DNA of 44,300 nt from positions 1-44,300 of the IMG/VR virus record IMGVR_UViG_3300024059_000009, one strand, 5' to 3'. Made by a program: the position numbers and the translations under genes. Under the pieces are notes generated by a model that was given only the letters and a program-made list of their open reading frames with translations, was not told the origin of the DNA and ran no database searches. Source of the stretch: a virus. Each line of letters opens with the position of its first letter. The first letter of the stretch is position 1. Below, one piece after another: positions 8,326-40,912 of this stretch.

Positions 8326-10239
8326 ATGATACACGAAACAGCAAAAACACCTGATGATAAACTGCGAGTCAGAATTGACGAAATGCGGGATGCGTCTAAG
8401 AATCAACTTAGAAGTATGCGTAGTCGATGGTTAGACTCTGCAAGAGATTATCGCCCACAAATGAGTACACAGAATCATCGTGACGGTGTGGGTCATAATA
8501 AGCTACAGAAGAAACGTGCTGGCAACGAGCTAGTTCAAAACGGTTCTGGCAATAGAATATCATCAATTATAGATCAGCAAATATCAATGATCTATGAAAA
8601 CAATCCAAGAGCGTTCTTTCTACCTAAAGAGACAGACGACCTAACCTTTGCAAAAGACTTAGAATCACTTACGAAGTGGCGAATGGATAGAATCCAGTTG
8701 CGCCAAAAACTCATTAAAGGTGGTCTTTATTCAAAGTTATTTGGTTTCCAAGCTTTTCATGTGTATTGGGACGACTCACTACCTGACGATGCTGATGTAA
8801 ACGCACGTATCTTATGGCCTGAATCTTTAATCATCGATCCTAAGCTAGAGTCACAGAACCCTGAAGAGGGTGACTATGTAGGCTATGATCGCATGGTTAA
8901 TATGGAATACGCCAAGAGAAGGTGGCCCAGAAAAGCTAGCAAGATCAAAGACGAGATGCGCATTGTGAATGAAGGTTCTGCTATTGGCAGTGACGGTCAC
9001 AATTCAAATCAGTTAGCTGCTGAGTTAGGTCATGACACACAAGGTACTCTTGAACAGCCAATGACCGATAAAGAGAAGCAAGTCGAAATGACTGTAATAT
9101 GGTTTAAAGACTATGCTCAAGACTCTTATAAGGTCAAGAAGCCTCTACAAATGCTTATCGAAGAAGGTAAGGTCGTACGCAACGAATTACAGCGTTATGT
9201 GTGGGCAGAAACAGGTCAAGAATGGACTGAAGAGTCTAGTCCTGAAGAGACTGTTAAGGTGCCTAAGTACCCTTATGGTAGACACGTAATCAAGGTAGGT
9301 AATACTATACTTGAAGACTTCGCATGGGGCTACGATGCTAATACAGACCAAGTTAGACGCAGATCATGGCCTATTGCTATTGCAGTTAATAAGCTTATTC
9401 CCGGCGCTTGGTTTGGGCAAGATGAATGTGAAGGGTTACGAGCAGATCAAAACACTGCTGACGTATGCTTACAAAACATCACAGAACACGCTTACTCTGC
9501 TGCTCATCCAGTACGAGAAGTAGATACAACTAAAACAAGCAAAAACAAGGGTGACATACAGAAACAGCTTAGTAATGGTTTAATACCTACTAAGGGTAAG
9601 AACGCTGTAACAACACACAGCGCAGGAAACATTAATACTGACGTATTTAGCTTGCTTAAGATTTCTCAGACTAACATGGAGATTTCAGCAGGTATATCAG
9701 GTCAAAGCATCGGTCGAGAAGGCTCAAGCCAACAGACAGCTACAGAGATTGCTGCCCTCCAAAGAGCAAGTAGAGGAAAGGTTGGTATCACATCATCATT
9801 CGTTGATGAACTAGTGAACCGCCTATACGTTCTCGCTGCCGAAGCTATCCAATTCAATTATGACGAAGGACGCATTGTGCGTGTTCTAGGTGAGAACAAC
9901 GATAGCAAAATGACAGCTATTCAGATCACCAGACAGCTAAAAGATGTGAAGTTCGATGTAGAGGTAGAAGCTGGTTCAACCCTTCCAAACGACAAACAAC
10001 AAAACAAAGTAGATGCTCAAGAGTTGTACGGAATAGTTGGACTACCTTCATTGCCTAATTTATTAGACGCATATGAAGTTAAGAATAAAGAAGAGATGTT
10101 ACAAAAACATCAAGAGTTCCAGCTATTTCAACAGTTTGGGCCACTCTTGCAAGACCCTAATGTGCAAGCAATGTTACAGCAATATGCTCAACAGCTAGAA
10201 GCACAGCAAGGGCAGCAACCACAACAGGCTGCTCAATAA
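8326..10239 (+). CDS. Portal protein
   Basis: At 637 residues, this follows the layout of podovirus-type portals: a helical N-terminus (DKLRVRIDEMRDASKNQLRSMRSRWLDSARDY), a stem and wing region with WPESLIIDPKLE, a hub segment WPIAIAVNKLIPGAWFGQDECEGLRADQN, the conserved GISGQSIGREGSSQQTATEIAALQRAS, and a Gln-rich helical barrel at the C-terminus (residues 595-637). The ATG at 8326 has a GGTAAAAC leader only. It is followed by a 101-base gap holding two related stem-loops and then the scaffold gene, the usual portal-scaffold-capsid order. The portal forms the dodecameric DNA entry ring. Confidence 0.88.
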   Translation: MIHETAKTPDDKLRVRIDEMRDASKNQLRSMRSRWLDSARDYRPQMSTQNHRDGVGHNKLQKKRAGNELVQNGSGNRISSIIDQQISMIYENNPRAFFLPKETDDLTFAKDLESLTKWRMDRIQLRQKLIKGGLYSKLFGFQAFHVYWDDSLPDDADVNARILWPESLIIDPKLESQNPEEGDYVGYDRMVNMEYAKRRWPRKASKIKDEMRIVNEGSAIGSDGHNSNQLAAELGHDTQGTLEQPMTDKEKQVEMTVIWFKDYAQDSYKVKKPLQMLIEEGKVVRNELQRYVWAETGQEWTEESSPEETVKVPKYPYGRHVIKVGNTILEDFAWGYDANTDQVRRRSWPIAIAVNKLIPGAWFGQDECEGLRADQNTADVCLQNITEHAYSAAHPVREVDTTKTSKNKGDIQKQLSNGLIPTKGKNAVTTHSAGNINTDVFSLLKISQTNMEISAGISGQSIGREGSSQQTATEIAALQRASRGKVGITSSFVDELVNRLYVLAAEAIQFNYDEGRIVRVLGENNDSKMTAIQITRQLKDVKFDVEVEAGSTLPNDKQQNKVDAQELYGIVGLPSLPNLLDAYEVKNKEEMLQKHQEFQLFQQFGPLLQDPNVQAMLQQYAQQLEAQQGQQPQQAAQ

Positions 10240-29516: not shown

Positions 29517-29706
29517 TAGGAGTCTCCGCTTGGTCATTCATGCGTTCATTAACACTTAACCGTCTAACCTTACGTTGCAATGTTCTAATGCTACGATGTG
29601 CTTCAGTAAGATCATGTTCAACCTTAGCGTTATTAGCCATACTTAGTATGTAGTTAACCTCTAACTGTTCACGCTTGATGTCTTGTACTTGCTTGAATAA
29701 GTCCAT
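29506..29706 (-). CDS. Small coiled-coil protein, 66 aa
   Basis: Nearly all helix with heptad-like hydrophobics (MDLFKQVQDIKREQLEVNYILSMANNAKVEHDLTEAHRSIRTLQRKVRRL), basic in the second half. Its end overlaps the exonuclease start by 11 bases. AAAAAGGATGTAATACA precedes the ATG. It comes right after the Gly-X repeat gene in transcription order. No family is known to me; a small partner of the exonuclease is possible. Confidence 0.6.
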   Translation of the reverse strand: MDLFKQVQDIKREQLEVNYILSMANNAKVEHDLTEAHRSIRTLQRKVRRLSVNERMNDQAETPNVD

Positions 29707-29739
29707 TGTATTACATCCTTTTTGTTTGGTTAATTATTA

Positions 29740-29979
29740 TCAGCCATAGCCATAGCCATAGCCATTGCCAGTGCCAGTGCCAGAGCCATTGCCAGAGCCA
29801 TTGCCATTGCCATAGCCATAGCCATAGCCATTGCCAGTGCCAGTGCCAGAGCCATTGCCAGAGCCATTGCCATAGCCATAGCCATTGCCATAGCCATTGC
29901 CATAGCCATAGCCATTGCCATAGCCAGTGCCATTGCCAGAGCCATTGCCAGTGCCATTGCCAGAGTTTAAACTTGACAT
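29740..29979 (-). CDS. (Gly-X)n low-complexity protein, 79 aa, encoded by hexanucleotide repeats
   Basis: ATG 29979 has a fine ribosome site (GAGGTGATAGT) and overlaps the upstream gene by 13 bases, so this frame is the likely translated one. After MSSLN, the whole protein is 37 pairs of X-Gly, with X only Asn, Thr, Ser or Tyr, and the TGA comes directly after the last pair. Each pair is one hexanucleotide. A ten-pair block (S/N/T/Y order NSNSTTNYYY) occurs twice near the C-terminus. Such sequences resemble adhesive, silk-like or phase-separating Gly-rich proteins. The other frames give Met-Ala or His/Cys/Gln repeats without ribosome sites. A second repeat ORF of the same design lies at 40676-40912. 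Confidence 0.65.
   Translation of the reverse strand: MSSLNSGNGTGNGSGNGTGYGNGYGYGNGYGNGYGYGNGSGNGSGTGTGNGYGYGYGNGNGSGNGSGTGTGNGYGYGYG
29743..29964 (-). repeat. Hexanucleotide tandem repeat, 37 units
   Basis: Thirty-seven uninterrupted six-base units, on the leftward strand GGC preceded by AAT, ACT, TCT or TAT. GG therefore recurs every six bases for 222 bases on the coding strand, a spacing that could form two-layer G-quadruplexes in RNA or ssDNA. A ten-unit block is duplicated, a sign of slippage or unequal recombination. Confidence 0.95.
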
Positions 29980-30332
29980 ACTATCACCTCTGCAATAGTT
30001 TTTGCAGCTTTCTTAGATATAGGTATAAACTCAATTACCTCAGTAAGTGTAACTTCAGGAACTTCTCTTGTGAATTTGCACTTTTCAGGCTTTTTGGTGC
30101 CGTCAATCGCCAACTGTGATAAATCCATAGCTCCTTCCCAATATCTCATCCTGCGAGCATTGACAAGAGTCACATCTTTGCCATTTCTTCGCTGTATGTA
30201 ACCTGCAAAAACACCAGCAGAGTAAGTCCTTACCATACAGTAAACCAATCCATCATCTACTACTTGGGTAATCAGAGAGTCTTTTCGGACATACTCAACT
30301 TTATTAATCATCATTGTTTCGGGTTCAGTCAT
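29967..30332 (-). CDS. DUF6948-like small protein, partner of the Gly-X repeat ORF
   Basis: Read from ATG 30332 with AAGGATAG upstream (longer start at 30359 has no site), 121 residues. Core pattern: YCMVRTYSAGVFAGYI, a charged turn RRNGKDVTLVNARRMRYWEGAMDLSQLA, then CKFTREVPEVTLTEVIEFIPIS. This matches, from memory, the phage family DUF6948. Its V.L..A....Y..G and ..IE order recurs in the gene at 40909-41175, and both genes overlap an ORF of hexanucleotide repeats. Predicted small beta barrel; function unknown. It is the first leftward gene after an intergenic control region. Confidence 0.7.
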   Translation of the reverse strand: MTEPETMMINKVEYVRKDSLITQVVDDGLVYCMVRTYSAGVFAGYIQRRNGKDVTLVNARRMRYWEGAMDLSQLAIDGTKKPEKCKFTREVPEVTLTEVIEFIPISKKAAKTIAEVIVCQV

Positions 30333-34768: not shown

Positions 34769-35035
34769 TCAGCTCTCGTCTTTATTTATCCAATTCTCTA
34801 CTAAAGTAGCAAAGCCTGCTATATCATGCCAGCTATCGTCATAGTTAGGGTCTCCATTAACGATACGAGCTATTTTCTTAAAGATATAGTCTAAACCTTC
34901 GATGTGAACAACACTTAACTTGCCTTTATCGGCTTCTAACGCTACGTCAAGCAACATTCTAGACACCCTTGCGTTATCCTCAAATGACCCATAACGATTA
35001 CCTCTTTCTTCTAATGTCTTATCTAAATCACTCAT
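34769..35035 (-). CDS. DUF6378-like small protein, 88 aa
   Basis: The start SDLDKTLEERGNRYGSFEDNARVSRMLLDVAL and the block YIFKKIARIVNGDPNYDDSWHDIAGFATLVENWI match, from memory, small phage proteins with the ERG.RYG.F..NA and D.W.DIAGYA patterns, annotated as DUF6378. All helical. Related to nucleotide-pool or NTP-pyrophosphohydrolase-like helical proteins by look only. Overlaps the HNH-AP2 gene by eight bases. Function unproven. Confidence 0.65.
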   Translation of the reverse strand: MSDLDKTLEERGNRYGSFEDNARVSRMLLDVALEADKGKLSVVHIEGLDYIFKKIARIVNGDPNYDDSWHDIAGFATLVENWINKDES

Positions 35036-35573
35036 AATTATTCTTTATCCTTTCTTTGGATAGTTTGGTTTGTCCTGAGTTTAATTCTTCACCGTAGTGG
35101 GATACAAATGCCCTAGCCCTACAGATTCCAGCCTCTCTCTCATCTTTGTATCTTCCAACATGCTTAGATTTACCATCTATATGAATTCTAGCTCGCCACT
35201 TTCCCGAATACGTCTCCCAAAAAACTCCCAAATACTTAGAAGTTGCGCCTCTATCTGATTCTCTATTAAGGCTATTCAATAAAGCAGAAGCAACTCTTAG
35301 GTTACTCCTTCGATTATCTAATCCATCCCTATTAATATGGTCTATCGGGAACCCTTTAGGGTCTCCCATAAGAACACGGTGCATTGTTTTCTGCTTAAGC
35401 TTACCGTTAATCCTTATATGGGTTGCTGCGTAGAAACGATTATTATCAGCACTAGAAGAACACCATTGATGAATCCTTAATTTATTCATGTCTTCAACAT
35501 CTATTACACATTCTTGACCTCGCGTTAGCTTGATGTAGCATAAGTCGCCTTCAATTCTATACTCGTTCTTCAT
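35028..35573 (-). CDS. HNH endonuclease with AP2 domain, 181 aa
   Basis: A typical phage homing-type nuclease: an N-terminal beta region (YRIEGDLCYIKLTRGQECVID), the HNH core MHRVLMGDPKGFPIDHINRDGLDNRRSNLRVAS at about 72-104, with the DHIN catalytic His-Asn and RRSNLR, then an AP2 DNA-binding domain (about 113-160: TSKYLGVFWETYSGKWRARIHIDGKSKHVGRYKDEREAG). It sits outside any split gene, so it is probably a free-standing mobile gene. Preceded by its own strong promoter and structured leader. Compare the degenerate relative at 37156-37569. Confidence 0.9.
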   Translation of the reverse strand: MKNEYRIEGDLCYIKLTRGQECVIDVEDMNKLRIHQWCSSSADNNRFYAATHIRINGKLKQKTMHRVLMGDPKGFPIDHINRDGLDNRRSNLRVASALLNSLNRESDRGATSKYLGVFWETYSGKWRARIHIDGKSKHVGRYKDEREAGICRARAFVSHYGEELNSGQTKLSKERIKNNYE

Positions 35574-35902: not shown

Positions 35903-36193
35903 TTATTTAATGTTTTTACGTGGAGAATACAATCGCCACAATACGTTAGTTAAATCTTCAGCCACTTGTATAACCTTTTCCTCAGTCATACCCCAATCAG
36001 CACCATGCAGTAGCTCATGAACTACAAGATACATGCTCTTCTTAGTCTTTTTAAACCCACTAGGTAGAAGTATGTCACCTACTAACCCTTCCTTGCTAGG
36101 TGCAAAAGGATTCATGTTAATCCCTTCAAAACCTTCAAGGTCTAGTCGGTAAGGGTGGCCGTCAAGCTGTATTTTCATCCATTGCTTAGGCAT
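35903..36193 (-). CDS. HELLH small zincin-like protein, 96 aa
   Basis: Read from ATG 36193, which overlaps the stop of the phosphoesterase gene (TAATG) behind GGAAGG. The middle has MYLVVHELLHGADWGMTEEKVIQVAEDL, whose HELLH is the HExxH zinc and catalytic motif of metallopeptidases, followed by a helix that places a Glu or Asp where a third ligand is expected. Small one-domain proteins of this kind occur in phages and are annotated as zincin-like. Whether it cleaves a peptide is unknown. The N-terminal part has a short beta hairpin (KIQLDGHPYRLDLEG). Confidence 0.7.
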   Translation of the reverse strand: MPKQWMKIQLDGHPYRLDLEGFEGINMNPFAPSKEGLVGDILLPSGFKKTKKSMYLVVHELLHGADWGMTEEKVIQVAEDLTNVLWRLYSPRKNIK

Positions 36194-36900
36194 TATAATA
36201 CCTTCCCACACCATCGGCCATTTGTCTTAAGAACCATTGGACATAGTAATGGTTGCGCGTTACCTATATTAATATAGTGAGAGTCAGCCCATTCCCAGCC
36301 TTTGCCAACACCTAAGTTATCATTATATGATTTAAGGCTTTCAATAGGTATGCCCAATGTTTTAGCCTTACGCTTACTTAAGCTGTCGTGATTACCTTCG
36401 GATATTTTCATCTTTGGCATGTGTGACTCTAATTCTTGACAAAAGTCCCTAGCTCTCTTTAGCTCTTCTTTAGCTGATAGTGAGCCATACTCTACCTCAT
36501 GATAAGATGGGATATGATTCTCTTGAATATCGCCAACATGGAGAACGTGATCTAATTCTAACTCTTCTCTAACAGCTAAAAGAAATGGGATTGTATCTTT
36601 ATGGTGATATGGAGCGTGCGTATCTGATATTACCAACGCTCTATACTTAGACCCAATAACAGCACCGCAACCCGATATAGGGCGTTTCTTCTTGTGTTGC
36701 TTGTTATATTCAAATACTACTGCCTTTGGGTCGCCTAACCAGCCAGTTATCATCGACCAGCGCAGGTTATAATGGTCTGCATGGTGAGCAGTTTCAAACG
36801 AGCTATGAATATGACCACTAACAGTACAATGGCTAAATGACGCAGCATTGTTTTTCGCGCTGGCCCCTAAATTATGCGTTAAATATAAGTTTTGATTCAT
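36193..36900 (-). CDS. Calcineurin-like metallophosphoesterase, circularly permuted motif order
   Basis: GGAGG lies upstream of ATG 36900, and ATGA overlaps the previous stop. In the normal family order the motifs are DxH, GD, GNHD, then H and GHxH. Here the order is TH9, GHIH 29-32, DTH 93-95, GD 123-124 and GNHD 169-172: the usual C-terminal part comes first. The segment ending about residue 86 (KKKRPISGCGAVIGSKY) would be the normal C-terminus, followed directly by the normal N-terminus (RALVISDTHAPYHH). All metal ligands seem present, so it may be active on phosphodiesters. Partner genes are small and unknown. Substrate not deducible. Confidence 0.78.
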   Translation of the reverse strand: MNQNLYLTHNLGASAKNNAASFSHCTVSGHIHSSFETAHHADHYNLRWSMITGWLGDPKAVVFEYNKQHKKKRPISGCGAVIGSKYRALVISDTHAPYHHKDTIPFLLAVREELELDHVLHVGDIQENHIPSYHEVEYGSLSAKEELKRARDFCQELESHMPKMKISEGNHDSLSKRKAKTLGIPIESLKSYNDNLGVGKGWEWADSHYINIGNAQPLLCPMVLKTNGRWCGKVL

Positions 36901-37088
36901 TTTGACACCTCCGATATACAGTCAAAGTAAGTATCTAACTCTATCTCAGACATATCGCTAAACTCAATAGTAAGTCTTATGCTTTCACCGCAATGCGCTT
37001 GATAATGATTCGCTGCTGTGATATCGCACTTATACTTATATAGCAACTCTTTAAAATCTCTAATAAAACCTTCGTGATCTGCTTTCAT
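36897..37088 (-). CDS. Small hypothetical protein, 63 aa
   Basis: AAAGGAATATATT before the ATG. Contains DFKELLYKYKCDITAANHYQAHCGESIRLTIEFSDMSE, an alpha/beta pattern with two cysteines. The stop overlaps the phosphoesterase start (ATGA), so the two are coupled. Sequences starting with HEGFIRDFKELLYKYKCDI are frequent in phage small genes from memory, but unassigned. Confidence 0.6.
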   Translation of the reverse strand: MKADHEGFIRDFKELLYKYKCDITAANHYQAHCGESIRLTIEFSDMSEIELDTYFDCISEVSK

Positions 37089-37155: not shown

Positions 37156-37569
37156 TCAATCAATATTATCATTAATATTACTCATAATTCTATATGTGCT
37201 ATAACATTTCTGATTACAAGTGATCTTATTAGGTCGTCTTGACTTAAATTCCTTACCACAACCACAGCAAACCTTAGTTATTAAGCGGTTAAAAGTCTTT
37301 GATTTAAGGTTACTACGCCGTATATTTAGAGTGTCGCCGTCAATATTAACAACCTTTGAGCCTCTTCTAGCATTTGCAATAAGGCGGTTTAAGTATATTG
37401 TTGAGCCTTTATAACAAGACTGAATATATACATGCTCACTGTCGGCTTTAAGAGCTGCTGACCAGTGATGCTTCTTTGCTATGTCTATATCTTCAGTATT
37501 AATAGTAGCTATAGACCCATCTTGTAAATGGATGGCCGTTAAATCGCCGTTAATTGTGTATTTATTCAT
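37156..37569 (-). CDS. Degenerate HNH-family protein with zinc finger, 137 aa
   Basis: The first 95 residues align by eye to the HNH-AP2 protein at 35028-35573 (Y.I.GDL..I.L..G, ED......H.W, the GS.....R...A block, and IRRSNLK for RRSNLR). The catalytic DHIN stretch is replaced by VVNIDGDTLN, so the nuclease is probably dead. In place of the AP2 domain it has a CCGCGKEF and CNQKC zinc finger (about 101-125). The stop lies at 37156, and the gene overlaps the next one by four bases. Likely a domesticated DNA- or protein-binding derivative. Confidence 0.7.
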   Translation of the reverse strand: MNKYTINGDLTAIHLQDGSIATINTEDIDIAKKHHWSAALKADSEHVYIQSCYKGSTIYLNRLIANARRGSKVVNIDGDTLNIRRSNLKSKTFNRLITKVCCGCGKEFKSRRPNKITCNQKCYSTYRIMSNINDNID

Positions 37570-40675: not shown

Positions 40676-40912
40676 TTATCTTGACCATGACCTTGACCTT
40701 GACCATGACCATGACCCTGACCTTGACCTTGACCCTGACCTTGACCCTGACCTTGACCATGACCTTGACCCTGACCTTGACCATGACCCTGACCTTGACC
40801 CTGACCCTGACCTTGACCCTGACCCTGACCCTGACCTTGACCCTGACCATGACCTTGACCCTGACCCTGGCCATGACCTTGACCATGTGACGGCGCTAGC
40901 TTGAATTATCAT
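40676..40912 (-). CDS. (Ser-X)n low-complexity protein, 78 aa, encoded by hexanucleotide repeats
   Basis: ATG 40912 overlaps the upstream stop (ATGA) behind GGAGTG, so this frame is probably translated. After MIIQASAVT, the product is alternating Ser with Arg, Trp or Gly, ending right after the repeats at TAA. The RS-like pattern with Trp and Gly would be basic and RNA-binding in type; that is analogy only. Other frames give Val-Lys/Arg and Asp-X repeats without sites. Same arrangement as the Gly-X ORF at 29740-29979. One odd unit yields Trp-Pro near the N-terminus. Confidence 0.6.
   Translation of the reverse strand: MIIQASAVTWSRSWPGSGSRSWSGSRSGSGSGSRSGSGSRSGSWSRSGSRSWSRSGSRSGSRSRSGSWSWSRSRSWSR
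40681..40884 (-). repeat. Hexanucleotide tandem repeat, 34 units
   Basis: Thirty-four six-base units, NGGTCA on the leftward strand, where N is T, A or G and never C. One unit carries a second change (CTGGCC on the given strand at 40867-40872). GG or GGG recurs every six bases on the coding strand, G-quadruplex-capable and telomere-like in look. Sequence unrelated to the 29.74 kb array, but design and unit length are the same. Confidence 0.95.

Follow-up and report, generated by a model that had tools for sequence, protein, structure and literature searches.

Chain order in phage metallophosphoesterases

The metallophosphoesterase fold is among the commonest enzyme folds, and its solved members YfcE, MJ0936, LpxH, Mre11/SbcD, and Vps29 have a canonical chain order, with motifs following one another as I-II-III-IV-V; Vps29 is often held to be a non-catalytic binding protein. 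Among phages, the closest described relatives of the protein reported here are the enzymes of PHROG 221 (phage metallo-phosphoesterase), which are found in Autographiviridae and many other phages, including Vibrio phage VEN and phage Phi NF-1. Mycobacteriophage Gp48, from a different phage group, is a metallophosphoesterase with the five motifs; its authors showed phosphodiesterase activity, and it acts in counter-defence (PMC12287305). Natural rearrangements that spare the active site test how far folds depend on the order of their parts, and we describe a probable case in a viral contig (IMG/VR record IMGVR_UViG_3300024059_000009, positions 1 to 44,300; hereafter the window, all 44,300 nucleotides of it), where a phosphoesterase gene carries its motifs in the order IV-V-I-II-III.

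A phosphoesterase gene with two exchanged blocks

An initial annotation made from the sequence alone proposed that a gene of the window codes for a metallophosphoesterase with a permuted motif order and all of its ligands kept. The gene, whose start codon overlaps the stop of the upstream ORF 36897-37088, has the following features:

36193..36900, minus strand: permuted metallophosphoesterase gene, ATG to TAA, 235 aa, blocks in the order B-A-C
36649..36900, minus strand: block B, residues 1-84, which in normal enzymes is the C-terminal half and carries motifs IV and V
36874..36876, minus strand: motif IV histidine H9 (in LTH), unchanged across 20 permuted proteins and 22 B fragments from normal relatives
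36805..36816, minus strand: motif V, GHIH, residues 29-32; G, H, and H invariant
36259..36648, minus strand: block A, residues 85-214, the N-terminal half (motifs I, II, and III) in normal enzymes
36616..36624, minus strand: motif I, DTH, residues 93-95; D and H invariant
36529..36534, minus strand: motif II, GD, residues 123-124; invariant
36385..36396, minus strand: motif III, GNHD, residues 169-172; N170 and H171 invariant
36196..36258, minus strand: block C, residues 215-235, the normal C-terminal tail, in its usual position

The motifs thus lie in the order first described, with H9 and GHIH ahead of DTH, GD, and GNHD, and family profiles together with a block comparison bear out the assignment to the metallophosphoesterases. 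PF00149 (Metallophos) matches the window protein with 24.6 bits (curated cut-off 21.5) over residues 87-180 only, and scores 31.1 bits and 20.5 bits (just under the cut-off) with two other permuted proteins, L126 and L131; in all three permuted proteins tested, the best Pfam match is confined to block A. The PHROG 221 profile matches the window protein with an E value of 2.9e-36, split into two stretches, and also matches 6/6 permuted members tested. A search of PDB sequences with the window protein gave no match. Because the Pfam match spans only block A, annotation tools and structure searches that follow chain order under-recognize permuted proteins.

We compared the window protein, block by block, with the ORFs of the 19 viral-contig relatives identified first and of cultured-phage genes, and this alignment to normal phage enzymes, which the initial annotation had proposed as a check, makes the exchange of A and B directly visible. 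Every relative complete enough to judge has the order A-B-C, and the window protein has B-A-C. Normal relatives have DxH, GD, and [GS]NH in block A, a histidine and GHxH in block B, and a tail of ~20 aa, one strand of the LxPMxLxxxGRWxGK type, in block C; exceptions are a few such as L005 and L013, which are without most of the tail, and L025, which is truncated in B. Block A of the window protein aligns with the start of normal relatives and block B with about residues 140-216. In L001, the part matching the window's A comes first, that matching B second, and the final ~20 residues last, and window residues 212-234 are 65% identical to the L001 C-terminal tail over 23 residues. In phages Phi NF-1 and MKPT02, what looked like matches in a single piece proved to be extensions into unrelated N-terminal sequence, and both of these genes are A-B-C.

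PHROG 221 phage enzymes are homologous to the window protein in all three blocks and share its metal-site motifs, but they are A-B-C in all examined and only about 36-47% identical to it. The nearest in sequence are IMG/VR contigs L201, L240, L241, L246, and others (45-49% in A and up to 44% in B), which share the EYGxLSxKEE and GNH features with the window protein but have the A-B-C order and ordinary topology. As both orders are found in phages, with such close normal kin, the two topologies of one enzyme can be set side by side. The window protein is very probably a member of PHROG 221 in which block B, with motifs IV-V, has been shifted ahead of block A, with motifs I-III, block C has stayed in place, and the predicted two-metal site is rebuilt.

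The permuted order recurs in viral contigs

A scan of IMG/VR using an alignment with the window protein as its first row identified six contigs matching collinearly, in one segment each (residues 1-7 to 234, 35-43% identity, E 1e-46 to 1e-62). A second scan with those six proteins brought the total to 31 permuted contigs besides the window (L208-L236, L249, and L253), from 28 source datasets as counted from IMG/VR contig names. Their proteins are 34-43% identical to the window protein and share its B-A-C order, junctions, and block lengths, as does the viral protein A0A516M849 in order and junctions; the database search for the same order that the initial annotation suggested was thus productive. 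When 251 loci were classified by motif position with regular expressions, 38 were permuted (the window and the 31 contigs, with six contigs retrieved twice), 207 were normal, and six were untyped, five of the latter being missed by the motif-I pattern yet normal on reading and one having an altered GHxH. Each of 11 whole permuted records has a single copy of the permuted gene. Searches of viral contigs with the junction DNA and with a degenerate junction pattern gave no matches; this empty result is misleading because the codons were fixed and near kin of the window may be absent, and the alignment-led scans did find relatives.

Cultured phages appear to be without the permuted order, which we found in 0/636 records encoding a relative, because their best matches to permuted queries are in two pieces with E values no better than 2e-25, against ~1e-46 or better expected for a permuted gene. 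The window portal protein has no clear match in the 20 permuted-contig records tested, and thus their phages are not close kin of the window phage. A literature search for a permuted metallophosphoesterase found no paper, which is weak evidence, as subscription journals lay mostly outside its coverage. The permuted phosphoesterase is real and recurrent, an old rearrangement that has been maintained.

Predicted structure

Structure prediction, also proposed at the outset, was done with AlphaFold2, giving a mean pLDDT of 94.6 and a pTM of 0.92 for the window protein and, for the normal-order control L201, a pLDDT of 89.6 and a pTM of 0.88. For the window protein, the input combined 20 permuted sequences at full length with A and B fragments of normal relatives as unpaired rows, and rows from cultured-phage records were left out of the alignments. 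The two models have the same strands and helices with the blocks swapped, such that window residues 3-82 correspond to L201 residues 130-209, 87-213 to 4-127, and 216-221 to 212-217.

The L201 model matches solved phosphoesterases over its full length (YfcE, Z 14.9 over 164 residues; 447 PDB chains at Z>=8; Foldseek E 8.6e-8), whereas the permuted model matches no PDB chain at Z>=8 with a chain-order aligner. Its best PDB match is Mre11 (Z 6.2, residues 86-224, or block A and the start of C), and its best Foldseek E value is 0.07. YfcE, MJ0936, LpxH, Mre11/SbcD, and Vps29 belong to the same superfamily by way of block A and the normal-order relatives, but essentially block A alone aligns sequentially with the permuted model. 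No solved protein with a B-A-C topology was listed by the aligners, which follow chain order only. Among predicted viral structures, the BFVD model of A0A516M849 (240 aa, unnamed in UniProt) matches the permuted model at TM 0.96/0.94 and 1.2 A over 233 columns, with 42% identity to the window protein in a whole-chain match; ordinary phage phosphoesterases reach a TM of 0.58 or less.

In the model, the chain would be cut at the hairpin turn where the final A strand leads into the opening B strand, which becomes the new N-terminus, and a four-residue turn just ahead of the first A strand would link B to A. The strand of block C, which in normal enzymes forms a hairpin with the last strand of B, would now be reached from the last A strand, probably keeping its position in the sheet. 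A coevolution analysis on the normal fold at the C-strand position had an effective depth of 57, and its signal is dominated by gaps. Because the model is confident, the ligands are conserved, and the secondary-structure elements match, we infer a shared metal centre, with A and B predicted to sit against each other as they do in normal enzymes, rebuilding the same two-metal site.

One origin or two

In a tree of A+B+C set in canonical order, the 19 permuted proteins besides the window's group in a single clade with support of 99/99, and the window protein falls among normal-order relatives of the EYGxLSxKEE type with support of 90/78. Its place is uncertain because it groups with normal-order relatives, away from the other 19. 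One reading is that the window gene was permuted independently and reached the same B-A-C order, and the free tree and two changes of state on block A alone speak for it. However, the breakpoints are the same in all permuted proteins, the window protein is a long branch, and AU tests do not reject a single clade of all 20 permuted proteins (p = 0.166 overall, 0.175 for block A, and 0.488 for block B), and we regard two origins as possible but rather unlikely. Identical junctions thus argue for one origin and the tree, weakly, for two. We think it likely that these proteins are a non-circular B-A-C lineage of the metallophosphoesterase fold that has kept its two-metal site, and the order may have arisen twice at the same junctions.

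Conservation and predicted function

An alignment of 20 distinct permuted proteins has block lengths of 80-84 residues for B, 130-131 for A (20/20), and 18-26 for C, with the boundary of block B constant; like the window protein, the other permuted proteins end in the block C tail. H9, G29, H30, H32, D93, H95, G123, D124, N170, and H171 are invariant throughout, all eight metal-site residues among them, which upholds the proposal that the ligands are kept. For ten pairs drawn from the permuted genes, with the window's left out, pN/pS is 0.04-0.34 for the whole gene and below 0.5 within each block, values that are upper-side estimates because most pairs have saturated synonymous sites; these genes are under purifying selection.

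The window protein has two changes of its own at positions that are near-invariant in relatives: W54 (36739-36741), which is C in all 19 other aligned permuted proteins, and E127 (36520-36522), which is D in all 19. These substitutions would suit a protein that folds but acts as a binding protein in the manner of Vps29, a reading we consider improbable since the eight metal-site residues are kept in the window and in every aligned permuted protein. We consider the window protein most likely to be a functional di-metal phosphoesterase whose connectivity has been rewired. Because A and B are inferred to rebuild the same two-metal site, its chemistry would match that of ordinary family members, i.e. 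two-metal hydrolysis of a phosphodiester or phosphomonoester, and our likeliest guess at the substrate is a nucleic acid or nucleotide. Other genes of the window phage code for a RecE-like exonuclease and an SSB. Gp48 offers, purely by analogy, a possible counter-defence role for the window protein. PADLOC anti-defence models gave no match.

A block swap and its possible routes

The initial annotation saw a circular permutation, in which a normal C-terminus is joined to a normal N-terminus. The junction does bring the end of block B to the start of A, but it does not involve the full C-terminus, as the last strand (...LxPMxLxxxGRWxGK) remains C-terminal in the window protein; a true rotation would give B-C-A, where the observed order is B-A-C. 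Because tail C did not travel with B, the change from A-B-C to B-A-C is a block swap rather than a strict circular permutation. Going beyond simple rotation, with one strand passed between hairpins, makes such a change rarer and harder to explain.

Tandem duplication followed by trimming, also put forward initially, is a possible route, although in its simple form it predicts B-C-A, and so the observed order would require that the second B also be lost through an internal deletion. The exchange of A and B is what a circular permutation would give, but only a short turn lies between B and A, C is at the C-terminus in permuted proteins, and none of the permuted proteins surveyed was seen to carry a C-like segment at the B-A junction; a true circular permutation of B-C-A type is therefore very improbable. 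The turns between A and B and between B and C are alike in sequence among relatives (NGQP and SQP in L001), a suggestive similarity that might ease recombination at those sites. The block swap itself is too old for the event to be read from the DNA.

That assembly or amplification mis-joined pieces of a normal gene in the window, as might be imagined for one metagenomic contig with a distant nearest normal relative, has a negligible probability, because the same order and junctions recur at 34-43% identity in 31 contigs from 28 source datasets, every junction is in frame, and no junction repeats of note could mislead an assembler; as the gene is not private to the window genome, read-level doubts about this contig are moot.

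Genome context

The window phage belongs to a poorly sampled lineage, as a tblastn search of 50,697 phage records gave no match to its portal protein (8326-10239). Two HNH-like ORFs that are alike in make-up flank the phosphoesterase region (35028-35573 and 37156-37569, minus strand), the first of which, and not the second, matches HNH_3. Downstream of the phosphoesterase, a small protein (35903-36214, minus strand) has a zinc-peptidase-like HELLH motif; it has no confident family match and no relatives in viral contigs by the patterns used. Elsewhere in the window there are two simple arrays, one at 40680-40887 with an 18-base unit, TGACCATGACCTTGACCC, in 11.4 copies with 89% matches, and the other at 29743-29962, where the hexamer GCCATT is present in about 37 copies with 83% matches and one frame is an ORF (29706-30119) of HS/HC/QC/QS repeats.
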